Shown: positions 3,050-62,418 of the stretch, one piece after another
Layout: every line of letters starts with the position of its first letter
Numbering within the stretch: the stretch's first letter is position 1
Source: an uncultured Chlorobiaceae bacterium
GTDB lineage: Bacteria > Bacteroidota > Chlorobiia > Chlorobiales > Chlorobiaceae
DNA: 64,000 bases
Reading direction: 5' to 3'
Assembly: GCA_903822595.1 (NCBI GenBank)
Contig: CAIJPS010000002.1
Span: 1 to 64,000, forward strand
Translations under genes and position numbers: made by a program
The notes under the pieces: model-generated
Seen by the model: only the letters and a program-made list of their open reading frames with translations
Database searches by the model: none
What the model was told of the DNA's origin: nothing

Positions 3050-3078
3050 TGAACATGGAAAACGGAGATTATTGAATT

Positions 3079-4461: not shown

Positions 4462-4500
4462 GAGTAAACAGCAATAAATTTTATGTAAGGGGTAGAAGCT

Positions 4501-7211: not shown

Positions 7212-7223
7212 AGGGAGGATATC

Positions 7224-19787: not shown

Positions 19788-20147
19788 TACGGAGTTCCTC
19801 ATATTTCATGTAGCCAAACACCACTTCCGCAGAATGTGTACATACAAGCAGACATAAAACAAGCTTCAACAGATGTGTTACCCATCACTGATGGTTCAAA
19901 CTTGAACCCGGTAAAGCTTTAACGATTCATTATAAAGAAAAATAATTACAAATAAAATTCTCCACTTTCATTTGGATTGCAATTATGTTACTTTTGATTG
20001 AGGGTGGGTATCTTTTTATGCTAAGAGTTACATTGATTGGTAAAATTTGACTTTTGGATTCTGTTGCTACGTAACCAATTGAATTCCTCGTTTATGCCCC
20101 CGGAAAAAAAAATCAGCACCCCTTCCTGCAATTCAATCAAGGCCACG

Positions 20148-21386
20148 ATGCCTTCAAGAACGCAGTTCCAGTATATTTCACACAGACCTGCATGCCCTGA
20201 ATTGAAGGGATTTTTACCGCTGAAAATCGATAGCCGCCAGCTCGCCGATCTTGGTCTTGACTATGAGATTACTCCGGAGGTTGCCTCCCAGCTTGTAATT
20301 GGTTCAGAATGGTTTACAAAACTCTACGAAAACAATAACCTGACTGCCGGTGACCATTACCAGGAAAGCCTGACAGATATTAACCAGGCACTTGAGATTC
20401 ACAACTATACCGGACTCTGTCCAACCAATGTTCTGGAGGTCTCTCCATCTGTAGGGTCGTGTGCAGTTGCATGCCAGTACTGCCTGGTGACTGATGGCAA
20501 TCATGTAAAACCAATTACTGTCTTTACAAACTACGCAGAGCGATTGGCGAACTCTCTTGAGCACAATCGCCTGAAACCCCTCTTTTACTACTTTTCACCA
20601 AAAACCGAAGCGTTTTCCGAACCACACCTTTTCAACGGTATAGCGCACGATATCCTGCGAACCTTTGTTCGCCATTTTGAGAAATATCCCGATTCTCCGG
20701 TGCGGATTTTCATCGCGACCAAGGCTGGTCCAAAGCACTTGCAGGTAACCCACAAAGGAGACTCCCTTTTCTCTTTGATGAGCCAGATTGCATCAAAAAT
20801 TCAACTGAACGGCAGTATCGGCATTATGCCCCGGTACCTTCGTGAAGTACTTGAACCAAATGCCGCATCGATTGGGGAACGCCTTGACACACTGGTTCAA
20901 TGCAGGGAACTCGGCTTATTTGCCGAGTCGGTTCTCTGTCAGCCTTTGATGCTCCCTTACCTGACCGATGAAAATATCGACCAGTACATGTCGCTTCTGG
21001 CATCCGCCGGTGTCCGCAACATCAAACCTGAATTTCTGACTACAGAAATACGCAACTTAGTGTTACTCGCAAACTACATCAACTACTTTGATCCCGAGCT
21101 CATTGGTGAATTTTTCCACCCGTATCTGTCGTACAAGAATCAGAACCATATCAAACAGCGCTCAAGACTCGCACCTGAACGTTCTGTTTGTGTTGAGTAT
21201 CTCGAGAAGATTCGGAACTCCACGGAGAAGTATGGTATAACAATCAGTATATGCAACTGGGTAAAACAGGAGCTGAGTACGAACGCTGAATGGGTTCGCC
21301 ACATTGATCAGGCATCAGCAGCAAACGGTTACCGCTGCCTTGGCTATCAGACAGGTTTATTCCCTGAGAAGAACGGCACTCTGTGA
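20148..21386 (+). CDS. Radical SAM protein (spore photoproduct lyase / COG1533-like)
   Basis: A radical SAM enzyme of about 412 residues. The cluster motif is CAVACQYC (C105, C109, C112 from this start), and YYFSPKTEAFSEP followed by VRIFIATKAGPKHL recalls the SplB/COG1533 branch; that placement is tentative. Starts are possible at TTG 20037, ATG 20094 and ATG 20148; only the last has AAGG at proper spacing. The stop lies 6 bp before the giant NRPS gene on the same strand, so the two are almost certainly co-transcribed. A tailoring step on an amino acid or on the peptide is the natural guess, but a substrate cannot be read from sequence. A region of about 360 bp before it separates it from the reverse-strand SPFH gene. 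Confidence 0.78.
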   Translation: MPSRTQFQYISHRPACPELKGFLPLKIDSRQLADLGLDYEITPEVASQLVIGSEWFTKLYENNNLTAGDHYQESLTDINQALEIHNYTGLCPTNVLEVSPSVGSCAVACQYCLVTDGNHVKPITVFTNYAERLANSLEHNRLKPLFYYFSPKTEAFSEPHLFNGIAHDILRTFVRHFEKYPDSPVRIFIATKAGPKHLQVTHKGDSLFSLMSQIASKIQLNGSIGIMPRYLREVLEPNAASIGERLDTLVQCRELGLFAESVLCQPLMLPYLTDENIDQYMSLLASAGVRNIKPEFLTTEIRNLVLLANYINYFDPELIGEFFHPYLSYKNQNHIKQRSRLAPERSVCVEYLEKIRNSTEKYGITISICNWVKQELSTNAEWVRHIDQASAANGYRCLGYQTGLFPEKNGTL

Positions 21387-21392
21387 GATCGC

Positions 21393-24300
21393 ATGCATTA
21401 TCAGCAGAAAATACATGACTGTTTCAAAATATCTGCGAGAAGGCAACCATCGGCTCCCGCGATTATTAGCGATGACGTGCTCCTCACCTATGCTGAACTG
21501 GACGCTGCTTCCGAAAAGCTGGCCATCGAACTGCAAACCAGGGGCATCAAGATCGAGGAATCGATCGGGGTTCTTACGGAACGATCGGCAGATCTCCCGG
21601 CAGCATTCCTTGCGATACTGAAAGCTGGCGGAGTCTATGTTCCCATGGCCGCAGACCTGCCTGCCGACCGGCTGGCAAACATGGCTGAACAGGCAGGTAT
21701 TCGCCTCCTGATTGTTCTTGACGGCATTGAAATTCCTCCCGCACTCAGAGAAAGCGTCTTGAGCAATGGCAGCAGCAAACTGAGTGAAGCCGTCATCCGA
21801 CCGGAAGAATTGTCTGCAGGGAACACCGGAGCATCCACCCTTGACGAGAGAAAAAGCCGCCTGACAACTCTCGCGGCCATTCTGTTCACCTCCGGCTCTT
21901 CCGGCACTCCGAAAGGTGTTACCTTGACACATACCGCCTGCATCAATATGGCACACGGTCATATTGACGCACAAGGCATCACGAGTAAAGACCGCATTTT
22001 ACTCTCCTCTTCGCCGGTGTTTATCCTTGGTTTCCGAACACTCTGCATTCCCCTGATTTCAGGTTCAGCCTTTGTCCCGGTAAGGCGGTCAATAATCGAC
22101 AATCCTGACCGCCTGCTTGAACTGATGAGCCGTCATAAAGTCTCGATTGCTCTGTTTACACCTTCATACCTGCATCTGCTGAATGGGGCCGTACCAAAAG
22201 GACTTCGCTGCATCATGACTGCTGGCGAACTGCCGAACGCCGATGATGCACGGCATTACGCCCGGCATGTCGACTATTGGAATATCTACGGAGCAACTGA
22301 GGTCTGCGGCACGATCTGCATGCATCATGTCGATCCCGATGAGCAGGGCCTCGTTCTGAGCGGCAGGCCGTTTGCCGATACTGAGGTCTATCTGCTTGAT
22401 GCAGATGGCAATGAGGTGCCTGAAGGCGAGATCGGGGAGGTTCATGTTATTGGAACCGGTGTTTCTCCAGGGTATCTGAAGCAACCTGAACTCAATGCAG
22501 AATATTTTATTGAAACTCGTTATGGACGCGCATTTCGCTCTCATGACCTTGCCAGATGGAACAGCAACAATGAGCTTGAGACACTTGGCCGATCAGACAA
22601 TGCGGTCAAAATTTCCGGACAGGCAGTCTCTCTCGATGAGATTGAGCTGGCGCTGCAGCGGCATCCCGCTATAAAAACAGCAAAGTCAGTACACCTTAAA
22701 GGTCGTATTTTCGCTTTTGTGGAGTATCAGGAGTCAAGAGAAAAAGAAGCGGTAAACTGGCGTGAATTTCTTCAGAGGAGACTCCCCTCATACATGATTC
22801 CGGTCCATTTTACCGTACTGGACAAGATACCGCTAAATTCTGCAGGCAAGGCTGATCAAAAGGCCCTTCAGGCGATTGCAGAAGAGCTCTTCCATAACGG
22901 CTCAATTGAACAGGGTGATTCAACTCCTCCAGTGGGCCCGCTTGAGCTGGCAATAGCTGCCATATGGGAAGAGCTCCTTGATATCCGCCCGATCATGAGG
23001 GAGCAAAACTTCTTCGCCGCAGGAGGAACGAGTCTGCTTGCCATTGCGGTAAGCCAGAGATTGCATCTGCTTGGGTATAATGTACCGGTTCAGATGGTGC
23101 TGAGTGCGCTGAACGTGAGAGCGCTTGCCGAACATATTGCATCGATTGAGCACGAGCCTGACTCCCACCTGAACCGTGATCTTTCAGTTTCGAATATAGC
23201 AACGGTCGATCAGGAGGATTTCTGGATCGCTTCGGAAATCGGTCTGGCTGCGGCAGCATCCCACATTGTGCGCTTTCTGCGTGTTCACGGCAAGCCGTAT
23301 GCTCCAGTTGCATGGCAATCAGCCTGGATCAGACTGCTTGATCGCCATGCCGCACTGCGCACGGCGTTTTATGCAGACGAAAAGAACAGAATTCGATGGA
23401 AGAGTGTTTCGTCCGGTGAACTCTCCCGCCATGCAGCGCTGCGCATCGATCATTGCAGCTCCATGGAAGAAGCCCGCAACATAGCCGCACGCTGGGGAAA
23501 CGAACGGTTTCTGCTTATCGATCCCCCGCTTGCCAGGGCAGGCATTGTCCAAATTGAAGAGCGAAATGAAACACTGTTCTGGTTTGTGCTCCATCACTCC
23601 CTGGTGGACGGGGCATCGGCCCGACTGATACAGGATGATCTGCTTGCCCTGCTTGGCGGCAGGCAATTGCCACCGGCACCAAACGGCGTCGCCATGGCCA
23701 GCAGCGCTGAACAGCACTACCTCAATTCCAAACGGGCCGAACATGACCGCAGGTTCTGGATGAGATGCTTTGACACTCTCGCTGCTCGCGGCAGCGGAGC
23801 CTTCAGCGAATATGTAACGGATCGCCAGCGCCCGTCATTGCCCGGCAAACGAGGTTCTGAGCCTCTTGTCGAGCAGCTTGACGGCGGAACGGTTCAAACG
23901 CTTGGCCGGTTGGCAAAAAGCCGTGGAATCGGACTGCACGCTCTGCTGCTTGCCATTCTTGCATCAGAAATCCGACGACGCAGCGGAGTAAGTGACCTTA
24001 TGGTCGGAAGCGGCATAACCATTCGCCCTGCAGGAGGAGAACGTGCTGTCGGACATTTCGTCAACCTTCTTCCCGTTATTCTTTTGAAGGATGGTGACCT
24101 CCCCTTCTCGGAGCATCTGCTCAACACCCAGTCAGCACTCACCGAAACGGTTGAACATGCCGCATATCCTTCAGGGATGCTCTACCGCGAGTTCCGGCAA
24201 TGCCATCCCGACCTTCGCCCACGAGCCCGCACGTCACTTTTCGACATCGCCCTGACAGCGATTCCTTCCCGGACCATCAGTGACCCGCAGAGCGAAATCA

Positions 24301-33944: not shown

Positions 33945-34025
33945 TGAGCAGATAAGGCCTGTCCTTCGTTGAGAAAAGAATAAAACTCATGATACAAAAC
34001 GTCGGAACAATTCTGAACGAGCGCC

Positions 34026-35261: not shown

Positions 35262-35477
35262 ATGATGAGCGGTTCAATGCGTATCATCATAAGGGAATCT
35301 GAGTTTTTTTTCAGTAATTAATATACGAAGAGCTCCATCAGGATCGGGTGCCGCACAAGGATCCGGAATTCCGCGTGTAGCAGAGTTATCGAGGACTTTT
35401 TGTACGAATTTCAATAGCGATGGCGTTTATTCAGCATAAGTGGTGCGAATTGCCGTCCTAATAACAAGGAGAGAGTA

Positions 35478-37127
35478 TTGCATCTGATCCGTCTCCTGAA
35501 ATTGATCGGTGGTAACCCTTTACGGAAGCTTCTTGCATTTGCTTCAGCATCGGCACTGAGCACTACCCTTGTGCTTTCAGTGGTTACCTTCGCTGCCCAG
35601 CAAATCGACAAAACCAAAGAAGAGTTCGTTAATGTGCCGCTTGCGGTGCTCTTTCTGCTCTGCCTGGTGACCTATATTGTCTTTGAAAGCCGCCTGGTTG
35701 AGCGGTTTGCTTCTGATATCGAAGAAGCCATCGACCTGCTGCGCATGAAGCTGATCGGTCGGCTGCGTCATGCGGATCTCTGGCAACTGGAGCATTTCGG
35801 CCAGAGCCGCCTGTTCGCCAACATTACCCAGAGCTGCAAGGTCGTTTCATCGAACTCTCAATACCTTGCCCTGACAACCCGTTCGATCATCCAGATCGCG
35901 ATGATACTCATCTATATCGCGACGGTTTCGATGATCTCATGCCTGATGTTAACAGCTTTGCTCGCAGTTGCATCGACGGCCTACTATCGCCTTGGGCTAT
36001 CTCTGGAGAGATGCCAGGAAAGCCTGGCTGAGGATGAGGGGAAACTTTTTGAATGCGTCTCTGACCTGCTCGACGGATTCAAGGAACAGCGGCTCTGCAG
36101 CCGCAGAAGCCAGGCTCTGGGTGAAGAATTCAACAAGCTCTCCCGGCACACGGTTACATCGCGCAGCGAACTGCATCGGCAAAGCTGGCAGCAGTTTGTG
36201 TTTGGCGAAACCATGTTCAACCTGATGCTTGGGCTTGTGGTTTTTGTCATACCGGTTTACTCCCCCTCTGTAAGAACCGAACTGGTAAAGATATCTGCAG
36301 CGGTACTCTTCATGGTTCCTCCTGTATTCGGACTGATGCAATCCCTTACGGTCCTTCGTGCAGCCAAAGCTGCCGCAGGCCGTATGATGGAGCTGGACAG
36401 TGAACTCGTCAACATTGTGGAGCTCTGCAGTGAAGATCCTGAGCAACAAGTGCCCGCCGAGTTCAACGAGATAAGGATGGCTGATATGGTATTTGCCTAT
36501 CCGGCTCCCGGTGGAGAAATACCCTTCACTCTCGGTACTCTCAACCTCAGCATCAAAAGGGGTGAAGTGCTTTTCATAACCGGCGGCAACGGTTCAGGAA
36601 AATCGAGCTTGATCAAACTTCTGACCGGGCTCTATCATCCGCATCACGGGAGGCTCCTTCAGGACGACAAGGTTATCAGCTCACCCCAGTTTGCCGGTTA
36701 TCGTTCGCTCATGGCACCGGTTTTCTCCGACTTCCATCTTTTTATGCACCTTTACGGCCTTGGAGAGGTTGACCGCACTGAAGCAGAAGAACTGCTTCGC
36801 TGGATGGAGATGGATAGTGTAGTCGGTATGGAGGGAAACCAGTTTACTCGCACAAAGCTTTCGACCGGGCAACGCAAACGTCTGGCCCTTGTTGCGGCAC
36901 TGCTTGAGAAAAAACCGATTCTGATTCTTGATGAATGGGCCGCTGACCAGGACGCATATTTCCGGCATAAATTCTACCGCGAAATTCTGCCAGAACTCAA
37001 GCGGCGCGGAATGACCATTATTGCCGTGACGCACGATGACCGCTATTTTGACGCTGCTGACCGCCGTCTCCATCTTGAGTACGGCTGGCTGACAGAACTG
37101 CACGCCAACAGGAAGGAGACAATATGA
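35478..37127 (+). CDS. Cyclic-peptide-type ABC exporter, fused permease and ATPase (PvdE/SyrD-like)
   Basis: A 549-residue half-exporter: about six transmembrane helices in the first 330 residues, then a nucleotide-binding domain with Walker A GGNGSGKSS (from about 369), signature LSTGQRKRLALV (about 461), Walker B PILILDEWAADQD (about 481) and the H-loop THDDRYF. The DEWAADQD motif is characteristic of the PvdE/SyrD group that exports peptidic siderophores and lipopeptides from NRPS clusters. The start is a TTG at 35478 with AAGGAGAG upstream, an acceptable alternative start. The stop overlaps the ATG of the next half-transporter (ATGA). Confidence 0.9.
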   Translation: MHLIRLLKLIGGNPLRKLLAFASASALSTTLVLSVVTFAAQQIDKTKEEFVNVPLAVLFLLCLVTYIVFESRLVERFASDIEEAIDLLRMKLIGRLRHADLWQLEHFGQSRLFANITQSCKVVSSNSQYLALTTRSIIQIAMILIYIATVSMISCLMLTALLAVASTAYYRLGLSLERCQESLAEDEGKLFECVSDLLDGFKEQRLCSRRSQALGEEFNKLSRHTVTSRSELHRQSWQQFVFGETMFNLMLGLVVFVIPVYSPSVRTELVKISAAVLFMVPPVFGLMQSLTVLRAAKAAAGRMMELDSELVNIVELCSEDPEQQVPAEFNEIRMADMVFAYPAPGGEIPFTLGTLNLSIKRGEVLFITGGNGSGKSSLIKLLTGLYHPHHGRLLQDDKVISSPQFAGYRSLMAPVFSDFHLFMHLYGLGEVDRTEAEELLRWMEMDSVVGMEGNQFTRTKLSTGQRKRLALVAALLEKKPILILDEWAADQDAYFRHKFYREILPELKRRGMTIIAVTHDDRYFDAADRRLHLEYGWLTELHANRKETI

Positions 37128-38764
37128 GACTTTTCAAGGCTGTTTTGCGGGAAATACCGGAAAATCTCAAGCCGCTCCTCTTTATGAACATTTTGTCTGC
37201 GATTGCAACGATGTCGCTTGTTGCTCTGGTTTCAACCGCTGCAAAAGAGGGCGGTACCGGCCAGATCAGCGGTCGTCTCATGCTGATGTTTGCCATAACG
37301 GTTACCCTCTATCATGTAACACACATCTATACCCTTGTAACGGCATCAGCCGATACCGAGCGCCTGATACACAAACTTCGCACGGATCTGTTCGACCTTA
37401 TCCGACGTACCGATCTGGTGACCATAGAAAAGATCGGTCACGCAACTCTTCAGGGTGTACTGACACAGGATACGCAGATTTTGGCCGAGGTACTGCCCAT
37501 GCTGGTAATCGGATTCCAGCAGGCTGTCATGCTGCTTTTCCTGGCAGCCTACCTTGCCTGGCTCTCCCCGGTTGCCTGTTTCCTCGCATTCGGTCTTGCC
37601 GGTTTAACCGTAGCCATACGTTTTTCGCGTGTCAAGGCGTTGCGCACCATGATGCAGGCGGCTGACGAAGCTGAAAAAAGGGTTTTCGATGGCCTTACCG
37701 AACTTCTGCATGGATTCAAAGAGATCAGGATGAACGGATTGCGTGCTGACGATGTGACCCGCACTCTTGCAGAAGCCTCCGATGAGTCCCGCACAACCAA
37801 CTCACTCCTGAAAGCTCAATGGGGCCGGAATTATGCTGTTATCGAAGCAATGCTTTTTTCACTGGTTGGATTGATGGTTTTTGTTGTACCATTGTGGGTT
37901 GCCGGCTTTCATGCCGTGATACTTCCGACAACCATTGCTGTACTCTTTATTTCCGGCCCAGTGAGTACCGTCTCTTTTGTCACCCCCCTTGTTACCAAAG
38001 CAGAACTGGCACTTGAAAATATTGACCTTGTCAAACAAAGACTCTCTTCTGCAGCAAAGGACATCTCCTGCGAAGAGAGTGGTTCTCTTGACAATTCACC
38101 ACTTATGATTGGCCTGAAAGATGCACAACTCTCTTTCCTTGATGCGAAAGGAGTCTCACTGTTCAAAATCGGAACGATTAATGCGGAGTTTCATGCCGGT
38201 CAGATCACCATGATTACCGGGGGCAACGGATCCGGCAAATCAAGTCTGCTTCGCATGCTTACAGGCCTCATTCCGCTTGACACAGGTGCTCTTGTTGCCG
38301 ATGGCGTCGAACTTATGACAGAGCAGATGCAGGACTACAGAAACCAGTTCTCTGCGATCTTCTCCGACTTTCACCTCTCCCGGCGCCTCACCTTTATTGA
38401 TAAGCTGAATCCTGAAAGGGTACGCATGATGCTGGAGCAGTTTGGCATGCAGGACAAAGTGAAGGTGAACAATGGACAGTTCAGTACCATAGATCTCTCT
38501 TCAGGACAACGCAAACGCCTGGCTCTTATTGTTGCGGAACTTGAAGATAAACCAATCATAGTGCTTGACGAATGGGCTGCTGACCAGGACCCTCACTTTC
38601 GGCAAATCTTCTACGAAGAAATCCTGCCAGACCTCAAGGCACGGAACAAGATCATTATCTGTGTGACACACGATGATCGATGGTTCCACCTTGCCGACAA
38701 AATGTACCGGATGAATGAAGGAACAATAGAAGAGAGTGAGAAAACAATAAACGGGAAAGTGTAA
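37124..38764 (+). CDS. Second PvdE/SyrD-like ABC exporter half
   Basis: A 546-residue paralogue of the preceding gene: membrane domain of about 320 residues, Walker A GGNGSGKSS (about 366), signature LSSGQRKRLALI (about 457), Walker B PIIVLDEWAADQD (about 478), and VTHDDRWF. Both halves keep all ATPase motifs, so a heterodimer with two active sites is likely. The ATGA overlap with the upstream gene makes equal expression plausible. It lies between the two NRPS sets, 35 bp before the 38800 synthetase, so it could serve either product. Confidence 0.9.
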   Translation: MRLFKAVLREIPENLKPLLFMNILSAIATMSLVALVSTAAKEGGTGQISGRLMLMFAITVTLYHVTHIYTLVTASADTERLIHKLRTDLFDLIRRTDLVTIEKIGHATLQGVLTQDTQILAEVLPMLVIGFQQAVMLLFLAAYLAWLSPVACFLAFGLAGLTVAIRFSRVKALRTMMQAADEAEKRVFDGLTELLHGFKEIRMNGLRADDVTRTLAEASDESRTTNSLLKAQWGRNYAVIEAMLFSLVGLMVFVVPLWVAGFHAVILPTTIAVLFISGPVSTVSFVTPLVTKAELALENIDLVKQRLSSAAKDISCEESGSLDNSPLMIGLKDAQLSFLDAKGVSLFKIGTINAEFHAGQITMITGGNGSGKSSLLRMLTGLIPLDTGALVADGVELMTEQMQDYRNQFSAIFSDFHLSRRLTFIDKLNPERVRMMLEQFGMQDKVKVNNGQFSTIDLSSGQRKRLALIVAELEDKPIIVLDEWAADQDPHFRQIFYEEILPDLKARNKIIICVTHDDRWFHLADKMYRMNEGTIEESEKTINGKV

Positions 38765-38799
38765 ACCGGCAATCTGCAAATAAACAGTAGCGATCGACC

Positions 38800-41700
38800 A
38801 TGATATCGATTACAGATCTGCTCGCCGAACTGGCTGCATTAGACATTCAGCTCAGGGTTGAAGATGGCTTGTTGCATTTCAATGCTCCTGAAGGTGTTTT
38901 TCATGATGAAATCCGTAAAAAAGTTCTGGCCGTAAAACCCGATTTGATTGCATTTCTGCAACAGGAAAGTGGTGCCGCGGTTATCGATGAATCACCGTTA
39001 ACAGATACCGAACGCCGCCTTGCTGCTCTGTGGCGTGAATTTCTTAAATGTGACAAAATTAGAGCTAAAGACGATTTTTTCATTCTCGGAGGACACAGCC
39101 TGCTCTTGATGCGTCTGGTTCTCAGAATTGAATCAGCAGGATTGGGGAAAATTGATCTTTCGCAAGCAATAAAGGCAAGAACTCTTGAAAAAATGGCAGG
39201 AGTGCTTGATGAGGCCGCCAATACACCACCTGCTTTGGAGGTCTGTGAACCGTCCCTGTCAGAATTGCCGTTATCGTCCCTTCAGCTCTTCAGCTCTTCA
39301 CTCACCGGGCTCAGCGATCCTTATCTCCGCGACAGCTCTCTTGCACGGTTATGGCAAAGAGCTGCCAAGCGTTACAGCGAACTGACTGCCATTGTCTATC
39401 GCAATGAAATCTTCACCTATCAGGAGCTTGATGTCTGGTCTTCAACTCTCGCAGCAGCACTTTTTGCTTCAGGAGTGAGAGAAGGCTCCACTGTCGCACT
39501 GGCTGCGACACGAAACGCATCATCAATTGCAGCCATCATTGGCATACTTAAATGTGGAGCGGTCTATCTCCCTCTGGATGACAAGATGCCCCACATATTG
39601 GTAGAGAAGCTGTTGAAATTCTGTGATGCACACTGGATAATTGTCGATCAGGATGGCCTCGAAAGGTATTCAAAGCTTAAGGAGATTCAACTCCTCGAAA
39701 TAAACAAACTGAACACTCTTTCATCCGGCTCAATACTGCCGGATATTCCCGAACAATGTGGCCATAAACCAGCGTATATCATGTTTACCTCTGGTTCAAC
39801 AGGTGAACCAAAGGGAGTAATTATTCCCCACCGCGCTGTTGCTCGCCTCGCGCTCAACAAAAAAGTTATTGCACTTCAACCGGGTGACGGTATGGCGCAG
39901 ACTGCTCCGCTTGCTTTTGATGCATCAACCCTTGAGATCTGGGCGACACTGCTCTCAGGAGCTCGTCTGGTATTCATTGAAGAGAGCTTTCTCTGGCAGT
40001 CGGAGAGACTTGGAAATTTCCTTGCCGAAAAAGGGGTCACTGCCATGTGGCTGACCGCCTCACTCGTCAACCGGATTGCCGACCTCTCTGCACAAGCCTT
40101 CGCTCCTCTCCGGGTTCTCTTGACGGGCGGTGAAGTCTTAAGTGCCCATCATCTTAAAACCGTGATGAAGGCCTGCCCTGATCTTCAGATCTTCAACGGT
40201 TACGGCCCAACCGAAAACACGACATTCACTACCCTCCATGCCGTGACAGCCGGTGATCTGGTAACTGACTCAGTTCCTATTGGCCGTCCCATTGACAACA
40301 CACAGGTCTATGTGCTTGACGAGGCCTTGCAGCCCGTCAATATTGGTGTTATTGGTGAATTATACGCAGGCGGTGACGGCCTCGCGATCGGCTATGCCGG
40401 ACGAAAGGATCTTACCGATCAAGCATTCCTCACGCTGCCCGATCAGCCCGAAATACGAATCTACCGCACCGGTGATCTGGCCCGGTGGCGAATGGACGGC
40501 ATCCTCGAATTTTGTGGTCGGAAAGACGGTCAAATCAAATTGCGCGGACATCGTATTGAAACCAGCGCAATAGAAGCTGTGCTTTCTGACTGCCACGGGG
40601 TTAAGGAGGCTGTGGTGATGGTTGATGGCGAAGGGGAATCAAGAGAGCTGGTCGCATTTTTCACTGCACAGCACAACGATGAAATGCTCTTGCGACACCA
40701 CCTTGCTGAACGGCTTCCCATCTACATGATGCCAGCACGCTTTATCTGGCTTGATGAGTTCAAAGTCAACAGTAACGGCAAAAAAGATCGTACGCTCCTC
40801 AGCAAGATCCTGATCAGAAACCAGGAAGAGACTCCTCTTTCATTCGGTCAGGAACGGCTCTGGATAGTACAGCAAATCACACCCGACATACCTCTCTATA
40901 ATGTACCTCTTGCCTTTGCCATAGAAGGAGAGCTGGATTGTGCGGCACTCAACCGCGCCATTTTCGCTCTCGAAAAGCGCCACAAGTCACTCCGTTCTCT
41001 TATGCGGCCAGCAGACGATACCAATCCGAACATTCGTCATCAACTGCTGCCTCCCGGAGATCTCGTACCCCACATCGTTGATCTCAGTTCATCCCGGGAT
41101 CCTGAAGAGGCCGCAATAAAAGCCATAGCAACTGAAACAGTTCGTCCGTTCCGTCTGGAGGCTGAAATCCCTGCAAGAATCTTTCTCTTCAGACTTGGTG
41201 AACAACAATGGCTGTTTTTCATGGTCATCCACCATATTGCCTGTGATGGATGGAGTTTAGATATTCTTCTGCATGATCTTGCAGCACTCTATGCAGTTGA
41301 GAGAGGGGAAACAGACCACCAGCTTTCACCCATCAGGTACCGGTTTGCTGATTATGTCGATGTCCAGAAGAGCTTTCTGAAAAGCGAACATGGCCAACAA
41401 CTCCTGTTTCGAAGATGCAAACGGTTGACTCCACCTCCGGAACCGCTTGATTTTCCGATCGACCATATTCGACCTCTGAATCGCAGTTATGCCGGTCAGA
41501 CTCTTCACGTCCCTTTCGAAGCATCACTCAGTCAGGGTATTGACCAACTGGCACAAGATGCCGCCGTCACACCCTTTGTTCTCCTGCTGGCAATCGTCGA
41601 ACTGCTCCTGTACCGCATTTCCGGTCATGGAAGAAACGGAAATTTTGCCGTAGGCGCCTTGACATCCGGCAGAGTTAGCGCTGAGATGAGTGACCTCATC

Positions 41701-43956: not shown

Positions 43957-43970
43957 CAGAATCGTCGCAC

Positions 43971-46900: not shown

Positions 46901-47495
46901 GATAATCCAGGATCGGCCGATCATACTGCTTGGATGGAGCTTTGGCGGTTTGCTGGCCTGGGAGGCAGCAGAGCGGTTACGAAAGTTCGGAACAAAAATT
47001 GAACGTGTTATTCTTCTTGACAGTATAGCCTCGCCCGATCCGATACGAAGCATCCTGCAAAAGGATGAGGCTGATTTTATTGCCTCAATGTTCGATGAAA
47101 TGGGACTCGGAAGCGCTGAATATTTACGCACGTTGACTCCTGACGAACGCCTCGACAGAATTATTCAACAGGTACGCAGCAATGACTATCTGCCCGAAGG
47201 TCTTGATCGTCAGCATATGCGTCGTCTTCTTGCTCTTTTCCAGAATAACGGTCTGGCTGCACTGCGTTACCAACCTCGAAAAAGTGAGGAGCGGATACTC
47301 CTCATTCGCCCGAAGCTTGCATCCAGCCAGGCACCGGGTATTCCAGGTGACGACTATAACGGCTGGGCCCAACTTTGCAACAATGGAGTGAAATTATGCT
47401 GGATCGATGGAACACACGGTCAGATGCTGATCCATCCTTTTGTTCAACGGTTGGCAGACCATATCCGCAATTATACAGAGCAGATAAAGGAATGA
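43971..47495 (+). CDS. NRPS termination module: A domain interrupted by a methyltransferase, T, thioesterase (1174 aa)
   Basis: The A domain runs from about residue 25 but is split after the AGCVYLPIDPT (a2) motif near 102. Residues about 140-440 hold a SAM methyltransferase (VLEIGCASGFT around E230, then MNSVIESFPGYGYLR and LAPGGVLFLGNLWD). The A domain resumes at IIFTSGSSGQPKG (a3), with Asp508 and the SNGKLDEH a10 motif near 798. T has Ser860. The thioesterase has GWSFGG with S990, LLDSIAS, and GTHGQM with H1149, so hydrolysis or cyclization is expected. By-eye pocket code DGHDIGAVNK has no match I know. There is no C domain, so one must act in trans. TE here versus reductase in the first NRPS argues for two products. 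Confidence 0.9.
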   Translation: MKIADFIFDDPSSAVASGALNAESSTCSGNIASRFSIIAARHPLRTAVVDEEGSMTYAELNELSDRIAHLLRHQQLQPESRVGVMMGRSRFYIAALFGVIKAGCVYLPIDPTLPLERRSRLLSIANAKALITSADSAGDMQRLEWLNSGLQFSLTLDCDDVDSLVETPGELMSTELWDHIAGEAANDIDAGGWKSAFTGLPITPSAMETFGANACNKIAPCLKPGARVLEIGCASGFTMRHTAPLAASYLATDLSRHNAERVEVIARNLGLQQVSSRQLAAHDIDILPEGSFDLIVMNSVIESFPGYGYLRNVLDKLVNLLAPGGVLFLGNLWDLERQEIYLADLAKFAREHAGEGYSTRSNLNGSFFVSFAFFQDWAARRIERPSIKRSPIDAPGFDPAPYSFDVIISFDKLGEGIASNERKTPLHFDRRALVPENPVQPSAEISSSQGAYIIFTSGSSGQPKGVLVEHGSVINLIHAIEEEIYTPLLMRIDAEFLNISCCFSFSFDGSIHQIFTPLLNGHTLHLPNEDTRQDPERLHRFFESHELHVVDATPSLFALLLDYWQERGIGSSAICFILGGETFSTKLPERLYALPGTLNSEIWNAYGPTECCVNACHYRLTSTNWHEILPPPIGRPMSGIDIKLCDKSGRLLPVGIPGQILIGGAGVAREYINEPELTARHFLVDEDGKRWYCTGDIARWIETGLLQFIGREDRQVKIRGYRIELSEIESAMLASPLVRQVAVVVADPRQDGDRILVAWVVASPGFDAVRCRADLDLHLPAWMMPTLIVEIDELPINSNGKLDEHRLPSLHKKELSNSNAQMQIPFSRDTERKLAELWQKLLDVPINSAEDDFFMLGGHSVLGIRLVSLIETGFGVKLPLAELFTSTTIARMADRIEAKQAAFKWHSVVAVNPFGERTPLVCFHPAGGNVLCYKALADALGREWPMYMVQSSGLEAGQSLQPSVELMVTGYLPELQEIIQDRPIILLGWSFGGLLAWEAAERLRKFGTKIERVILLDSIASPDPIRSILQKDEADFIASMFDEMGLGSAEYLRTLTPDERLDRIIQQVRSNDYLPEGLDRQHMRRLLALFQNNGLAALRYQPRKSEERILLIRPKLASSQAPGIPGDDYNGWAQLCNNGVKLCWIDGTHGQMLIHPFVQRLADHIRNYTEQIKE

Positions 47496-47497
47496 AT

Positions 47498-48196
47498 ATG
47501 CTTGATCGCCATACCATCCGGCTATGGACGCATGAGTTTCGGGAAGTAACAAATTCTCCTCCACGGTGGCTTGCACTTCTTGATGAAAAAGAGCGGATGC
47601 ATTGCAGGCTGTTCCGACAGGAAAAAGACCGTATTGCCTATGCGGCGGCACATGCCCTGCTCCGCATGGCACTCAGCCGGACTTTGGAGCTGCCGCCAGC
47701 AGCCCTGATTATCGATCATGACAGGATGGGAAAACCTTTCCTCAATATGCCTGGCTGCATGGGTATGGCTATCACACTCTCTCATACTTCAGGCATGGTT
47801 GCTGTCGCTCTCAGTCAGGCAGGGAGTATCGGTGTCGATGTCGAGGCCATTAATCGCAAAAATATTCCTCATAATAATTTATCAGCGTATGGCCTGAGCC
47901 ATGAAGAGATTGCAATGCTTGCATCGCTCTCTTTTCATGAACGCTGTGAAGCATTTATCGATTTTTGGACAGCACGCGAAGCTGTGGCAAAAGCTGACGG
48001 ACGGGGTCTTTCACTTCCGTTCTCTGACATAAGGATTGATCTCTCAATGAACAAAGCCACTATTCATGAGAACGGGCCATCGCCCTCCTCTCACTGGACG
48101 CTGTGGCGTGAACAACCCTCCTCTCTTTACCGACTGGCACTGGCCTGGCCGCAGGGAAAAGGAGCATTCACAAGAATGAACGAACAACTTATTTGA
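47498..48196 (+). CDS. Sfp-type 4'-phosphopantetheinyl transferase
   Basis: Converts apo carrier (T) domains to the holo form by adding the CoA phosphopantetheine arm; all ten T domains of this locus need it. The signature motifs are SIGVDVEAI (Mg-binding acids) and FWTAREAVAKADGRGL, where the family usually has W-x-x-K-E-A; here Lys is Arg. IDHDRMGKPFL and LSHTSGMVAVAL are also Sfp-like. The frame is open far upstream inside the previous gene, but AAAGGA lies 6 bp before the ATG at 47498, which gives 232 residues, the usual size. An ATG at 47492 overlapping the TE gene stop is the alternative. Confidence 0.9.
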   Translation: MLDRHTIRLWTHEFREVTNSPPRWLALLDEKERMHCRLFRQEKDRIAYAAAHALLRMALSRTLELPPAALIIDHDRMGKPFLNMPGCMGMAITLSHTSGMVAVALSQAGSIGVDVEAINRKNIPHNNLSAYGLSHEEIAMLASLSFHERCEAFIDFWTAREAVAKADGRGLSLPFSDIRIDLSMNKATIHENGPSPSSHWTLWREQPSSLYRLALAWPQGKGAFTRMNEQLI

Positions 48197-48217
48197 ACGT
48201 GCATACGCATACCTACC

Positions 48218-57200: not shown

Positions 57201-57757
57201 CCCGCCAGAACGAACTGGTCATCGGCATGGGTGTTGCAGGACGCGACAGCGCTGAACTGGAAGGTCTGATCGGTTTTTTTGTCAATGTTTTGCCCATCCG
57301 CATCAAACTGGATCAGGAGAGTGAGTTTGACAGCCTTCTGAACGTTGTTCACAAGACGCTTATGGAAGCCCTCGAGCATCGTGATTATCCCTTCGACTGC
57401 CTGATACGGGATCTGGCGCCAAAACGTACCGGAAACCGGCAGCCTCTTATCAATGTGGTCTTTGAGTACCAGCGGTTTGAACCGGTCAACACGGCACTCA
57501 TTTTTCCTCCGGCTCCGGATATCAGTGTATCTTTTGCCCGTTCACTGGAAGAAGTAATTTATTCAAAAACCGCCAAGCACGACTTGCTCCTCTTTTATGT
57601 TGACCAAGAAAAACATACCGCGCTGATGATCGAATACGATACCGATATTTTCGATACGCTGACCATCGAACGATGGCTATCCTATTTCATTCAATTAGCC
57701 CACCATCTCTGCATCGAAAATTCAGCAGCGGCTGGTTCCGGGAGTGAAAAGCCATGA
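48218..57757 (+). CDS. Hybrid NRPS-PKS: partial C, T, KS-DH-KR, T, C-A-T-C, no acyltransferase (3179 aa)
   Basis: Residues 1-160 are a fragment of a condensation domain: the later lobe only, without HHxxxDG, ending near PLFDTLFSFNQ. T follows (Ser200) with no A domain. KS about 260-690: Cys431 (DTACSSA), His564 (EAHGTGT), His604 (NYGHLDS), all intact. DH about 835-1120: H881 (EHRLGGVP) and D1047 (HPGVLDTAV). KR about 1330-1550: GGTGGLALLLAEEL and Tyr1489. T Ser1612. C HHTLADG at 1801. A Asp2333, by-eye code DLYAIGGTFK (no match known). T Ser2679. A complete terminal C, HHIVNDG at 2869. No AT lies between KS and DH, so malonyl must come from a trans-acting AT. KR plus DH predicts a two-carbon unit with a double bond. 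The stop overlaps the next NRPS start (ATGA). Confidence 0.92.
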   Translation: MTTESHEFWRTLLAELPSLRFSADSPYLSSSACTNEPIVIEHLFDSVQTRRLSAFAETHGITFSSLLLAVHMKVLSMQIPGRRFVTGIKVNAAEDENPLPLVFDAASQHESWSDLARHISLLEESSRQHSEDMTLDELEALCTRSPLFDTLFSFNQSLPDKPAENLQRDLEARIHALWQALLPGAEFSVDDGFFDAGGNSLLLVRLHEKLESHWPGVFSVARLFSVTTIAAQARCIQEKNEKKDRNLTHTTKDRVTKTPGHIAIVGIGVSLPGATTLEACWHDVANGIDKVSSIPEDRFKESVTMLNALERTIPEQFQEAAWLEQIFNFDPERFRLSPADAALVHPEQRLFLETALMALEDAGYGGKSLDNEKIGTFVATSQGAVWTDYALRVLPERAEQLFINNVPSNVATRLSFLHNWRGPATLVDTACSSALTAVHLACQALISGECTAALAGGARLMLIPHSSAARFTIESSTARTHAFDESADGTGSGEGSVVFLLKTLEQAKSDGDAVHALILGTAINQDGASTGMAAPNPAAQSEVITAAAVKAGVPLASISYIEAHGTGTHLGDPVEIEGINLAFSRQSSETGFALIGSGKGNYGHLDSCAGALGLLRAVLCLKNDQAPPQPFFCCANPRINFSNSPVRVSSELLSLPDRGNARRAGVSSFGLSGINVHAIIEAPPPVTHIPATMYSGWTVIGLSAATRELLLNSAASLLSLIHLRPDYPLANIAYTLNTGRDTLSERFVVWVQNREELLTALDSFLKGEKLQRAITGSAGRRQRQQSKPPVSALASDEPSARLAAESWAEGAELVWPQEQQVSRLHLSPSPLQRIRCHPDPHRESAVHPIKPIPLQVPIDTPDGIRYPLDVHDPAFWPVSEHRLGGVPTLVGMGLLPLLADTLDASSGKFLPFAIKEISWLRPLQTPSIKAGSVSLLITDPEAKEQHAILGGKTVDGTWKNFAEATLCKLPSVPPPALKAEELQERRGKLIPTSVRLSEATGEVNVSNRWNCLIAKGDNGNELTAHLELPDNGFESRNLQNLHPGVLDTAVSIVLDRAGLIPASCAEVFLWLPLPKKVFVSAVRNPMADGGVTADVNLYDMESGALCISFKMMRFIVSAKNTEIQKNPIKVTVVPSFPVWVADQTASRSLSPLPALVVIGEGDFFRRVTDHPIVKKSLVASCNSTALTDTVTRAIADGIVQHVLFLPAPGEDAGIRTLVTLRSLIKNMHQPLQLLAAGSGAYLMTTKSDSFMTGPYTALVAGLVNVAACDEAMLSTRYLELEKEAPIEALLQEIESGNNHTQSPVLIDQSGRRFKRSFAPLSDFPAPAATLWPGSGCCVISGGTGGLALLLAEELASGGRVSLALLSRHPLEQSNDSDSQRRLERLEALSRKGITFRHWCVDVTDLEKLSAVLNDVRNVLGPITAVVHHAGLGESRILINETPESFTASTAAKVKGAHNLDLLTRNDPIAAFILAGSLSALEYRAGTGAYAAANLFLDAFALWRLSEGRPAQCIEWCQIGEMGMASRILDGKLDEYSLTPKEVVLNWRTALASGAPQVALLYDEKTDKKTEAVASTSEQSKTLEKALAEIWAEILGYESIEFDDDFYALGGDSMSGIDIIDRIIKDLGHPVTFTDLVESGTVTMLAERLRRQAQTANSAANSRNIQLPTTAPEKSRYPLSWEQMALIQAQMAAEKSIAYNLPNILSLPPDCNADRLESALNALMAHHEILRTRFHFNGIEPEMEILSEVRIQLKRICPINGITSDFCRNWVHPFDLETAPPVRFELVEKPDGTPQALLFDIHHTLADGLSLELLTSDLGNLYAGKNLPPLALQLKDYAWWSRKGAGIEAVERAKLYWLDRFSLPLPVLDLPSDRPRPAFHKWQCGSVAFSLPEKSVEALRRYAATHSTTPFTVVLSAWAALLARYCRNEDLVISVPVDARESLGATGVPGMMVSLLPLRFSFHDNESVESFIRGVHTDLADAMRHRACPLGMLLEALAPPAAPERTLLSEVTLSYMNYAESKGGDRDDKEAFRLTGIERGDGKNDISIFMRDLPDQISVVCEYYSAMYDQERIERMGEHFSVLLDALLESHTDTKLSMLPLLTVEEESWLEGAGNAMDYQVQRRGNLFAHFAATVQQQNNSIAVCDNRERLSYSDLLYRAGGIAEYLSETGVCEGDIVALHIERSCTAVATILGINAVGACYLPLDPSYPPLRIALILADAQCRVVIADAAGRKALAEAALMEQNEAGTKADGDVPIQYVTIDAEKMALLCTPPPATNRGDDLLAYLMYTSGSTGIPKGVRIFEHSIIHLVIYDNYITFKPTDRILQVASFAFDLSTYDLWGALLNGSQLFISDRNDILDPMALAENLKRLNISVIAMPTGLFHRQAEVMPESFSTLRAVIAGGEAMSTELMRRVMKASPETAFFNGYGPTENTTFTTVHKVCHQDLKKESLPVGRPIPQTIVRVLDQNDKKVPIGIWGDIVTGGEGIADGYLNRPELTVERFFYGEDGIYYYRTGDLGRWRRDGILEFGGRKDGQIKLRGFRIEPGEIEEALLQHPSVAGAAVLFRRETGELIACLLTRNEALEATELRSWLMHRIPSYMVPARFIRLTHLPVNSNGKLDRIQLNLDANNGEIISDSNATSGGLPSGETEKMVAEVFSEIFQHPVENRNVSFLDLGGHSLIIIKAINRIAQRSGIRLTINNFFATPTVAGLASCIETGKHHDAGELRIPRAPETAFPFASHAEERLYLVNSLDATSAAYNMTFFFRAGTDFNADTLHEALLALVERHESLRTGFEERDGIIVRQIEPVEAITIGWSEDDLSRYANPSVEALRLTEKEVSQPFNLNKPPLLRVRVIRISKEQTLILIITHHIVNDGWSSRVFLRELQQSYSAAAKGSRAKFPPLPITVRDYALWQRTRDWSETASWWKNTLEGAPGRIELPCDRPLPDVPTNKGAILKKELPQETAEALKQIALHNGVSMAALGLALFSALLFRLTRQNELVIGMGVAGRDSAELEGLIGFFVNVLPIRIKLDQESEFDSLLNVVHKTLMEALEHRDYPFDCLIRDLAPKRTGNRQPLINVVFEYQRFEPVNTALIFPPAPDISVSFARSLEEVIYSKTAKHDLLLFYVDQEKHTALMIEYDTDIFDTLTIERWLSYFIQLAHHLCIENSAAAGSGSEKP

Positions 57758-60700
57758 ATAATCCACTTGAGCGGATACCTCAGCGTTATCCGCTTTCATC
57801 GGTTCAGTATGACATCTGGTTCGACCACTGCCTCTTTCCGGATACACCGCTTTACAACGTTGGATGCTACAGCCAGATCAATGGAGAGCTCGACCTGCAT
57901 CTTTTCAGACAGGCAATAACGCTGCTCGTAAAGGAAAACGATGCGCTGCGCATGGTGTTGACCGAGCGGGACAACACTCCTTTCCAATCATTTCCAGACA
58001 TGGATGATGTCAACATCACTCTTGTTGACTGTTCCATTGAGCGCGACCCGCAACAAAGCGCTGTCCGACACATCCTGAACATCCATAATCAACCGTTCCG
58101 GATTTTAGAAGAGCCCCTTTTCCGCAACAGCCTTTACAAACTTTCGGAATACCGCTATTTCTGGTCGCACGTCTATCACCATATCGCTGTCGATGGTCGG
58201 GCAATAGGTCTTGTTGCCCATCGCGTTGCAGCACATTACAACGCCCTCTTGAACGGTCGCCCACTCCCCTTCAGGCCGGAAATTTCATACCGTAACTTCC
58301 TCCATCACGATGCCTCGGCCCCTGACCCGGACAAGCTTGAGGGTCACCGTCAATACTGGCAAAAAAAATTCACCCCGCTGCCCGCCCCCCTCTTTTCTGC
58401 TCGAAACAGATACAGCGTGTGCACGGAAGCAGTTCCTGGTGGGGTTCTCATCGGACATCTTCCCCGCAAACAATATGACCGACTTGGGAGACTGGCCGAA
58501 TTGCATTCCGTCTCCCTCTTCCACGTGATGATCGGGATTCTCTATGTCTACTTCACCAGAGCGCAGGAACAGGATGAGTGTATCATCGGATTACCGGTAT
58601 TGAACAGGAACTCGCCAGCGTTCAAAAAAACCATAGGCCTCTTCGTCAGTATTATTCCTGAACGATTCAGCTATGGCAATGAGATCAGCTTTACCGAGCT
58701 GATCAAGGCGGTCTCAAGAACCTTGAGGCAGAGCTATCGCCATCAACGCCTCCCGGTAAGCGAGATCAATCGTCTGTCAGGAGTGTTACAGAAAGGCAGA
58801 AAAAGATTATTTGACCTCGGCTTCTCTCTGGAAAAAGAGGATTATTCGTTTAGTTTCGGATCCACTCCCGTCGGTGAAACCATCTGGAATATTCATAATT
58901 TTGAACAGATTCCTCTCGTCATATTTATGCTGGATTTCTCCGAAAACAAGGAGATCCAGTTTGATTTATGCTACAACCAGGCCTATTTTGATGCGCCTGA
59001 AATAGAGTGCATACAGGCTCGACTACTGCATTTGATTGAAGCGGTAGTTGCCAACCCTGAAAAGCGGATCAGCAATCTTGATATTTTGCCGCCCGCTGAA
59101 AAAGAACAGTTACTCATCAACTGGAACGCCACAGATGCGCCTCTGCCGGAAAAATCGCTCCATCAACTCTTCGAATCTCATGCCGCCGGAAGAGCGGAGG
59201 CTACTGCCCTGGTTTTTCAAAACATGAGGCTAAGTTACGCTGATCTCAATGCAAGAGCCAATCAGTTGGCACACGCCATGATTGCACTCCGCACAGAGCA
59301 TGATGCCCCGATCGCCATTGCGCTGGATCGCTCTGCGGAGATGATTGTCGCGGTGATAGCCGTACTCAAGGCCGGTGGATGCTATCTGCCCCTTGATCCC
59401 TCCTATCCTGCCGAACGTCTCGCCTTCATGCTTGAAGATTCTGGCGCAAAACTGCTCATCACACGCCAATCGCTACTCAATAAATTGCCGTTTACCGCAG
59501 CTCATACCCTTTGCATTGATTCCGATCAGACATCTATCGCATCACGAGCGAAAAATAATCCCGATCTTGCCCTCAGCCAGCAGCAACTCGCCTATATCAT
59601 CTACACCTCAGGCTCCACCGGTGTTCCAAAAGGGGTGGCTATTACACATCGCGGGCTGAGCAATATGGCATTGGCCCAGATCACCGCCTTCGGTGTGACC
59701 TCAAGAAGCAGGGTGCTGCAGTTTGCCTCCTTCAGCTTCGACGCATCAGTTTCAGAGATTGCAATGGTCCTTTGTTCCGGAGCAGAACTGCATCTGCCGG
59801 ATGAAGAGCAACGCTTTCCGGGGCCATCGTTGCTGCACTATCTTGATGCTGCGGCCATCACCCATCTGACCCTGCCGCCGACAGCTCTTGCCCTCCTGCC
59901 CCGGAAACCGTTACCGGCCCTGGAGGTTCTTGTCGTAGCCGGCGAACCATGTCCCCCGGCTCAGGCCTCCTTCTGGTCGAAAGGACGACGATTCTTCAAC
60001 GCCTATGGTCCGACCGAAACAACGGTCTGCGCCACCATTGCTGAGTGCAGCCACGACGACATCCTGACTGACGTGCCTCTTCTGGTCGGCAGACCCATAG
60101 CAAACACAAAACTCTACGTGCTTGACCGCAATCTGCAGCCAACCCCGACAGGCACAGCCGGAGAACTGCATATCGGCGGCATCGGTCTGGCAAGAGAATA
60201 TCTGAACCGTCCCGAACTCACGGCGGAAAAGTTCATTCCTGATCCGTTCTCCATTGAGCCCGGTGCCCGACTCTATAAAAGCGGCGACCTCGTCCGCTAT
60301 CGGGCGGACGGCAACCTTGAATTTCTCGGTCGTCTCGACCATCAGGTCAAGATCCGCGGATTTCGCATTGAACCAGGTGAAATAGAATCGGCACTCACCG
60401 CCCATCCATCAATCCACTCTGCCGTGGTCATTGCCCGAAGAGATGCGTCCAGTCAGCAACACCTTATAGCCTACCTTGTGACACGTGACTTGCGGCCCAC
60501 GATCACAGAGCTCCGGAGCATACTCAAAGGCACGCTTCCTGATTACATGCTACCCTCAGCTTTTGTTTTTCTGGAATCAATGCCACTGACAGCCAACGGC
60601 AAAGTCGACAGAAAATTGCTTCCCGAACCGGACTGCATGCCAGCCAATAATTCCGCCGCACCCCCGCACGATGATATTGAAGAACTGCTTGTGGACCTCT

Positions 60701-62418
60701 GGGCCAAGGCGCTACATCAGAAAAACTGCGGCATTCATGACAACTTTTTCGAGCTGGGCGGAGAGTCACTCTCTGCCGCCAGATTCACGGCCATTCTCCG
60801 GGATGCGGCAGGCATCAGCATACCAGTCCGCTGGATTTTTGAAGCTCCCACACCCGTTGAACTTGCAGAACGAATCCGCTCATTCGACCAGAACACCGAA
60901 CAGCTTCTTCCAATTCCTGTCAACAGCATTCTTCCCGACACGAGCAGAATAACTCCCGATCTTCTTCCCCTGATTCACCTTTCGCAGGCAGAGATCGATC
61001 ACATTCTGACAACTGTTGAAGGCGGAGCCGGCAACATACAGGATATCTATCCCCTGACACCGCTCCAGGAAGGCATGTACTTTCATTCCAGGTTGCAAAA
61101 AAATGGTGACTCCTACATGAGTCGTCATCTTTTTGCAGTTGACTGCCTTGCTCGTGCCGATATCTTTACGGCTGCCCTGCAGTCTGTTATTGAGCGCCAT
61201 GACATGCTCAGGACATCAATTGTATGGGGCCCGCTGCCTGAACCGGTTCAGATTGTCTGGCGTCATGCCCCGCTGATTGTTGAGCAGCTTGATTTCCATG
61301 AAAGTAATGGATTGATTGCCAATCAGTTAATGAACTCTTTTCCGCGCCATAACCGTCTCGATCTGGAACGTCCACCCTTGCTTCGGATAGCACTTGCACA
61401 GGATGGTGAGCGCTGGCTGATGCTTCTTGTCTCTCACCATCTGATAATGGATTACACAACGCTGATCGTGATGCTTGATGAGATAACTGCACATATTGAT
61501 GGAACACTCGAGCGCCTTCGGGCACCAGTACCCTTCCGCAATTTCATTGCCCAACTACACGAAAGAAATACATCTGGGAGTTCAGAACCGTTTTTCCGCG
61601 AAATGCTAAGTGATATTAAAAACCCTACCGCTCCATTCGGACTGCTTGATGTAAACGGTGACGGCTCAACAATCGTGGAATCGCATCGGGAGCTCTCAAT
61701 AGATTTTACCCTCCGGCTTCGCGCGGCGGCTCGTCACGTCAGTGCGACGCCAGCCGCCATCTGCCATCTTGCCTGGGCACTCCTTCTTTCCCGCTGCTGC
61801 GGTCAAAAAGAAATTGTTTTCGGCACCGTACTGACAGGACGCATGCATGGAGGAACCGGAGTCGAGCGTGCAGTCGGCATCTTCATCAACACACTCCCCC
61901 TTCGCCTGACATGCGATGCGCAAACGGTTGCCGAAACTCTTCGACAGACCCAGCATCGCCTTCTTGCGCTCATACGTCACGAATATGCCTCCCTCAGCAT
62001 GGCTCAGCGCTGCAGTGCAGTTCCAGCCTCGATGCCACTGTTCACATCACTGCTGAACTATCGGCATACAGCCAAAAAAAATGATGCTGCATTCCGCCTT
62101 GAAGGAGTTGAACTGCTCAGGCATAGTGAAGGAGAAAGCAATTATCCGGTCGGGCTCTCCATCGATGATTTTGGCGAGGGACTTGACCTGACTGTTCAGA
62201 TTGACGCATCAATTGATCCTGAATGGATTTGCAACATCATGCAATCTGCCCTCGAAGTTCTTGTCAAGGCTCTCGAAGAGGCTCCCGAAACGCCAATTGC
62301 AGAATTGGAGCTCTTCACCCCGGAAGAAAAGCAAACAGTACCCTGCCAGCACATCGGTACCTCACAGCCTCAAATGACCAATGCCACGACTCACCAACGT
62401 GAAAGCGGCACACTTTAA
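57754..62418 (+). CDS. NRPS C-A-T-C, tyrosine-type module (1554 aa)
   Basis: C about 10-430 (HHIAVDG at 142), A about 460-960 (Asp663, a10 TANGKVDRKLL), T Ser1005 (LGGESLS), then a second C-superfamily domain about 1080-1520. The by-eye pocket code is DASTVAAVCK, identical to the classical Tyr code, so Tyr or a close aromatic is likely. The final C begins YPLTPLQEGM, typical of C domains that follow an E domain or accept D-residues, and its active-site motif is HHLIMDY at 1228: both His and Asp are kept but the Gly is Tyr. It has no A-T behind it, so it probably works with another protein, best the C-less A-T-TE of the 43971 gene. It is the last gene of the NRPS run. Confidence 0.92.
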   Translation: MNNPLERIPQRYPLSSVQYDIWFDHCLFPDTPLYNVGCYSQINGELDLHLFRQAITLLVKENDALRMVLTERDNTPFQSFPDMDDVNITLVDCSIERDPQQSAVRHILNIHNQPFRILEEPLFRNSLYKLSEYRYFWSHVYHHIAVDGRAIGLVAHRVAAHYNALLNGRPLPFRPEISYRNFLHHDASAPDPDKLEGHRQYWQKKFTPLPAPLFSARNRYSVCTEAVPGGVLIGHLPRKQYDRLGRLAELHSVSLFHVMIGILYVYFTRAQEQDECIIGLPVLNRNSPAFKKTIGLFVSIIPERFSYGNEISFTELIKAVSRTLRQSYRHQRLPVSEINRLSGVLQKGRKRLFDLGFSLEKEDYSFSFGSTPVGETIWNIHNFEQIPLVIFMLDFSENKEIQFDLCYNQAYFDAPEIECIQARLLHLIEAVVANPEKRISNLDILPPAEKEQLLINWNATDAPLPEKSLHQLFESHAAGRAEATALVFQNMRLSYADLNARANQLAHAMIALRTEHDAPIAIALDRSAEMIVAVIAVLKAGGCYLPLDPSYPAERLAFMLEDSGAKLLITRQSLLNKLPFTAAHTLCIDSDQTSIASRAKNNPDLALSQQQLAYIIYTSGSTGVPKGVAITHRGLSNMALAQITAFGVTSRSRVLQFASFSFDASVSEIAMVLCSGAELHLPDEEQRFPGPSLLHYLDAAAITHLTLPPTALALLPRKPLPALEVLVVAGEPCPPAQASFWSKGRRFFNAYGPTETTVCATIAECSHDDILTDVPLLVGRPIANTKLYVLDRNLQPTPTGTAGELHIGGIGLAREYLNRPELTAEKFIPDPFSIEPGARLYKSGDLVRYRADGNLEFLGRLDHQVKIRGFRIEPGEIESALTAHPSIHSAVVIARRDASSQQHLIAYLVTRDLRPTITELRSILKGTLPDYMLPSAFVFLESMPLTANGKVDRKLLPEPDCMPANNSAAPPHDDIEELLVDLWAKALHQKNCGIHDNFFELGGESLSAARFTAILRDAAGISIPVRWIFEAPTPVELAERIRSFDQNTEQLLPIPVNSILPDTSRITPDLLPLIHLSQAEIDHILTTVEGGAGNIQDIYPLTPLQEGMYFHSRLQKNGDSYMSRHLFAVDCLARADIFTAALQSVIERHDMLRTSIVWGPLPEPVQIVWRHAPLIVEQLDFHESNGLIANQLMNSFPRHNRLDLERPPLLRIALAQDGERWLMLLVSHHLIMDYTTLIVMLDEITAHIDGTLERLRAPVPFRNFIAQLHERNTSGSSEPFFREMLSDIKNPTAPFGLLDVNGDGSTIVESHRELSIDFTLRLRAAARHVSATPAAICHLAWALLLSRCCGQKEIVFGTVLTGRMHGGTGVERAVGIFINTLPLRLTCDAQTVAETLRQTQHRLLALIRHEYASLSMAQRCSAVPASMPLFTSLLNYRHTAKKNDAAFRLEGVELLRHSEGESNYPVGLSIDDFGEGLDLTVQIDASIDPEWICNIMQSALEVLVKALEEAPETPIAELELFTPEEKQTVPCQHIGTSQPQMTNATTHQRESGTL

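Follow-up and report, generated by a model that had tools for sequence, protein, structure and literature searches.

The 42-kb nonribosomal peptide/polyketide locus described here is best read as two independent assembly lines, each with its own proposed product, lying in one operon of a green sulfur bacterium of the Chlorobium group; we put the probability of this reading at about 0.75. It builds on the domains and their order, on the distribution of the genes among related genomes, on the selection acting on them and on the positions of recombination breakpoints. To judge from its sequence, line 1 looks set to make the same reductively released peptide (X-Leu-Arg-Z) in about a quarter of the genus. 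We would give slightly less than even odds to a wider proposal: that bacteria of the Chlorobium group possess a dedicated system for secondary metabolism which is conserved and recombines. Its core would make an X-Leu-Arg-Z peptide not described before, ending in an aldehyde or alcohol; in some species an epimerase acting in trans would modify this peptide, as would a radical-SAM enzyme from an unnamed family with further links to NRPS genes in Clostridia and ligase-type genes in Bacteroidales.

Green sulfur bacteria, which are not noted for nonribosomal chemistry, have been studied as photosynthetic specialists, and in an open-access library searched for Chlorobium, Chlorobia and C. ferrooxidans no report of an NRPS product of this group was found, to judge mostly by titles and abstracts. 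A paper on thiols of the Chlorobiaceae contains a single passage on nonribosomal peptides, which concerns other organisms (PMC6282198), and one Chlorobi strain has been listed as lacking PKS and NRPS genes (PMC4289311). A line whose specificity codes are stable across roughly a quarter of the genus, one copy of which sits in a cultured strain, makes product and role directly testable, and would also provide the unnamed radical-SAM family with a natural-product context.

Gene content and setting of the locus

The window, that is the whole 64-kb stretch of DNA analysed, was read by ORF calling and Pfam searches between 20 and 62.4 kb, where all biosynthetic genes point in the same direction with a largest gap of 216 bp (Table 1), as the preliminary description had stated. 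Its domain counts were likewise recovered: nine A domains (four in the 4183-aa protein, two in the 1718-aa protein, one each in the 1174-, 3179- and 1554-aa proteins), ten T domains (4+1+1+3+1 in the same order) and eight complete C domains (3+1+2+2, the 1174-aa protein having none), besides the free E domain with its HHMIIDAASW motif, the PPTase, the two ABC exporters and the radical-SAM gene with CX3CX2C. The claimed KS-DH-KR set stands for KS and KR; the DH region scores 21.6 bits against PF14765, under the cut-off of 23.7. The single 42-kb locus holds as a physical stretch, which comparison splits into two assembly lines differing in distribution and recombination history. The earlier list had not included the reductase at the end of the 4183-aa protein, the thioesterase and the methyltransferase-interrupted A domain of the 1174-aa protein, the TubC docking domain of the 1718-aa protein, the half C domain that opens the 3179-aa protein or the lack of an AT. 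The A, T and C domains exceed their Pfam cut-offs and carry HHxxxDG and GGxS, with the exception of the final C domain of the 1554-aa protein, in which HHLIMDY replaces HHxxxDG. No AT domain was found in the locus by PF00698 search, and scanning the window for Rfam families and tRNAs returned nothing.

Table 1 Genes of the locus, with positions in the window
Feature	Position	Strand	Domains and remarks
Radical-SAM protein (suggested start)	20094..21386	+	CX3CX2C at residues 105-112 counted from 20148; spore-photoproduct-lyase-like fold
Line 1 NRPS, 4183 aa	21393..33944	+	A1-T-C-A2-T-C-A3-T-C-A4-T-R
Free-standing epimerization (E) domain, 411 aa	34026..35261	+	goes with line 1
ABC half-transporter (exporter 1)	35478..37127	+	TIGR01194, 276.6 bits, just under the cut-off of 286.2
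ABC half-transporter (exporter 2)	37124..38764	+	TIGR01194 cyclic peptide exporter, 316.2 bits (cut-off 286.2)
Line 2 NRPS, 1718 aa	38800..43956	+	TubC_N-T-A5(Val)-C-A6(Ser)-remnant of C-domain end
Line 2 NRPS, 1174 aa	43971..47495	+	A7 with methyltransferase between motifs A2 and A3, then T, TE
4'-phosphopantetheinyl transferase	47492..48196	+	start at ATG overlapping upstream stop; also in minimal line 1 operons
Line 2 NRPS/PKS, 3179 aa	48218..57757	+	half C-T-KS-(weak DH)-KR-T-C-A8-T-C
Line 2 NRPS, 1554 aa	57754..62418	+	C(starter?)-A9(Tyr-like)-T-C

The host genome comprises 3.04 Mb in 109 contigs, one of which, other than that of the locus, encodes the FMO antenna protein. Chlorobium ferrooxidans DSM 13031 (contig NZ_AASE01000011) carries an orthologue of the locus, and both findings support the earlier assignment to the green sulfur bacteria. 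In relatives the locus is flanked by the same DUF697, binding-protein and band-7 genes, and these three also adjoin it in C. ferrooxidans. The expectation that such genomes are usually poor in secondary metabolism finds support as far as C domains are concerned: PF00668 matches occur in 19 of 65 congeneric genomes, leaving 46 with none, and in none of the 24 genomes sampled outside the genus. Upstream of the locus, at 1415-8495 of the window, lie nifD, nifK, nifE, nifB and a NifN-like gene; G020 has its nif genes on the opposite side of the locus, so the neighbourhood has been rearranged.

Line 1 and its accessory genes

Specificity codes were read against a GrsA stretch identical to 1AMU. In line 1 they are ILRLMAIGTK for A1, DAWFLGFIVK for A2 (Leu-like), DVSDVGAITK for A3 (Arg-like) and DLSTMVGAAK for A4, and all four are nearly invariant among the carriers of this line. 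The A3 code fits an Arg consensus at nine of ten positions, and that of A2 is two residues off a common Leu code (PMC12283262); the exact unassigned codes of the locus had no match in a literature search, and several codes searched there returned a single paper. Asp235 is missing from A1, here and in all other line 1 copies in which this domain was read, and likewise in the homologue from a Prolixibacteraceae MAG. A1 would be expected to load an acid without the usual alpha-amine contact, after which the line would add a Leu-like, an Arg-like and a fourth residue.

At its C terminus the 4183-aa protein carries a thioester reductase (PF07993, 135 bits) that has both the NAD-binding motif and YxxxK, the features of a reductively released NRPS; YxxxK is present in all 13 full-length proteins inspected and GATGYLG in 11 of the 13. 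The best PDB sequence matches of this domain are the MxaA and AusA reductases, with which it shares the C-terminal position, the NAD binding and the YxxxK motif. From AusA, the aureusimine synthetase, line 1 differs by its four A domains, an A1 lacking Asp235 and the accessory E and radical-SAM genes. The best-scoring equivalog models, AusA and MxcG, both remain well below their cut-offs (for the AusA model NF047350, 1516 against 2500 bits), and single-domain NCBIfam models such as DltA and menE pass theirs on this protein only because the scores of its four A domains add up. The four-unit chain would be freed by NAD(P)H-dependent reduction as an aldehyde, or as an alcohol after a second reduction. 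Judged on the NCBIfam NRPS models, of which none reached its cut-off, no match of the locus to a characterised cluster emerged.

The free-standing E domain carries HHxxxDxxSW in common with the E domains of the gramicidin S and tyrocidine synthetases and PvdL, which are its best PDB sequence matches; here, by contrast, it forms a separate protein and reaches only 36.1 bits against the TIGR01720 cut-off of 74.2. It occurs in nine of the 65 congeneric genomes, always together with the radical-SAM gene, which is found in 12 of the 65, all 12 holding line 1 or fragments of it. Both genes stay around the line 1 NRPS gene with either type of line 2, the one in the window or its replacement (see below), and hence belong with line 1; since G010, G077 and G081 lack both, they are optional to it. 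The two enzymes may thus represent optional tailoring of the line 1 product, the two ABC half-transporters its probable export, and the PPTase, with line 2 genes around it, would be common to both lines.

Orthologues suggest that the radical-SAM gene starts near 20094 rather than at 20148. Its CX3CX2C cysteines are invariant in 20 sequences, and an AlphaFold model from the alignment of these (pLDDT 85.5) has spore photoproduct lyase as its closest PDB fold; an earlier model from eight sequences (pLDDT 44.5) was set aside in its favour. Motif and fold place the protein in the radical-SAM superfamily, PF04055 giving only 13.1 against 29.5 bits. It reaches no family cut-off, including that of TIGR03886 (19 against 437.55 bits), and, despite the shared motif and fold, it differs from spore photoproduct lyase by an identity of about 14% and by its linkage to NRPS or ligase-type genes. 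A role as supplier of the A1 substrate was considered and dropped: G010, G077 and G081, which lack the gene, keep the same type of A1.

Relatives of the radical-SAM gene were observed outside Chlorobium as well. It adjoins the line 1 NRPS homologue in the Prolixibacteraceae MAG (a short contig and possibly misbinned), and in Firmicutes/Clostridia MAGs it overlaps an NRPS gene (L071 5824-11131, L072 2-3876, L073 6120-12319), which is C-A-T-TE in L071 and L073 and a contig-edge fragment in L072; the next gene in L073 encodes a CoA-transferase III, with relatives in L071 and L072. In Bacteroidales (L061, L063, L069 and L070, each around 8.6-13.3 kb, and also L062 and L064) it lies near genes for an unannotated protein family of about 400 aa, a DegT aminotransferase and a glycosyltransferase and, in some, putative ATP-grasp genes, with no NRPS gene on the stretch compared; by eye we would guess the 400-aa family to be ATP-grasp-like.

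The four proteins of line 2

Line 2 combines a TubC_N docking domain, a KS-KR module without AT and thioesterase release (PF00975, 90 bits, at the end of the 1174-aa protein), as do other NRPS/PKS hybrids with TubC docking and AT-less KS modules. It differs from them in its weak DH, in the methyltransferase inserted between motifs A2 and A3, and in the placing of A6 and its T domain on two proteins, with remnants of C domains forming the junction. The half C domain at the start of the 3179-aa protein lacks HHxxxDG and is kept in the five other genomes aligned. No NRPS equivalog model was reached by the line 2 proteins.

The code of A9 is one that we take to specify Tyr. A7 reads DGHDIGAVNK, and A8, DLYAIGGTFK, changes between species. 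A5 matches a common Val code at all but one position (PMC12283262), and A6, DVWHFSLVDK, is a Ser code (PMC3795760). Using every complete C domain and the KS once, the proteins can be parsed into a probable order that runs from the gene at 57754 (C-A(Tyr)-T-C) over those at 38800 (TubC-T-A(Val)-C-A(Ser)) and 48218 (T-KS-KR-T-C-A8-T-C) to 43971 (A7(MT)-T-TE). The product would comprise five residues and one ketide, methylated, probably N-acylated and released by the thioesterase. The KS may be served in trans, as in trans-AT systems, by the only acyltransferase-family protein of the genome: the single PF00698 match, a 306-aa frame on contig C14 outside the locus, is presumably FabD, to go by its size.

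Distribution, mosaic history and alternative readings

Line 1 occurs in about 16 of the 65 congeneric genomes, three times in fragments (G067, G071, G087). G077 and G081 encode no C-domain protein besides it (three C domains); there the order is line 1 NRPS, exporter, exporter, PPTase, with neither radical SAM nor E nor line 2. Line 2 of the window type was counted in nine genomes, among them G026, where it is cut at a contig end, G033, where it is spread over several contigs, and G087, where it was recognised by frame lengths only; several of the relatives compared are fragmented MAGs. In G015, G032 and G069 its place is taken by two convergent proteins, one of about 3600 aa and one of 2373 aa, and fragments of this type occur in G071; by eye the two proteins read C-A-T-C-A-T-KS-KR-DH-like-T and TubC-C-A-T-KS-AT-T-TE.

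Selection was estimated by NG86, omitting comparisons at 35-39% identity, in which the best match was an NRPS protein other than the orthologue. Both lines show a dN/dS of about 0.2 wherever dS is not saturated (0.06/0.27 for the line 1 NRPS against G020, about 0.05/0.22 for line 2 against G010), and this conservation between species indicates that the genes are not a chance assembly. Towards G020, dS rises from 0.32 in exporter 2 to 1.71 in the 1718-aa gene, placing a break between exporter 2 and line 2; towards G010 it falls from 1.66 in the line 1 NRPS to 0.19 in exporter 1, placing a break between these two genes. Such sharp breaks imply that the two lines have been exchanged separately.

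These data bear directly on the reading of all nine A domains as one long assembly line for a single large peptide-polyketide. It would suit this reading that the genes share a strand, lie no more than 216 bp apart and have a single PPTase and a single pair of exporters between them; nevertheless, we consider it highly improbable, given that two chain-release domains, R and TE, sit on different proteins, that line 1 stands alone in two genomes, that line 2 is swapped for another type elsewhere and that breakpoints fall between the lines. Two independent lines remain the preferred reading, against which it counts that only one exporter passes TIGR01194, that some genomes with line 1 lack the radical-SAM and E genes, that the DH stays under its cut-off and that the last C domain of the 1554-aa protein departs from HHxxxDG. 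With a common direction and such small gaps, moreover, the two lines may be expressed together and might still work jointly.

As to function, a siderophore or other metallophore is suggested by the exporter passing TIGR01194, a family that includes pyoverdine and syringomycin exporters, and by the cultured carrier C. ferrooxidans being an iron oxidiser; the locus genes (with neighbours partly annotated) contain, however, no receptor, ferric reductase, hydroxamate or catechol gene, and we think such a product quite unlikely. Compatible with two independent lines, and a tentative though on balance doubtful idea, is that line 1 makes a secreted peptide aldehyde of the leupeptin type, which we presume its product to resemble, inhibiting proteases of competitors or predators. 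The Leu-Arg-like core with reductive release, the exporters and the purifying selection are consistent with this role, whereas the Arg-like residue would stand third and not at the reduced end.

Further NRPS genes were observed in single genomes of the genus: a 1984-aa NRPS in G032 (C171; L040 10866-16820) unlinked to the locus, one C-domain match in a 2007-aa frame of G083 (C129 38699-40003), and in G034 (C29; L047-L048), a genome without line 1, an NRPS cluster of another kind, made up of three proteins and accompanied by a PPTase-like gene.
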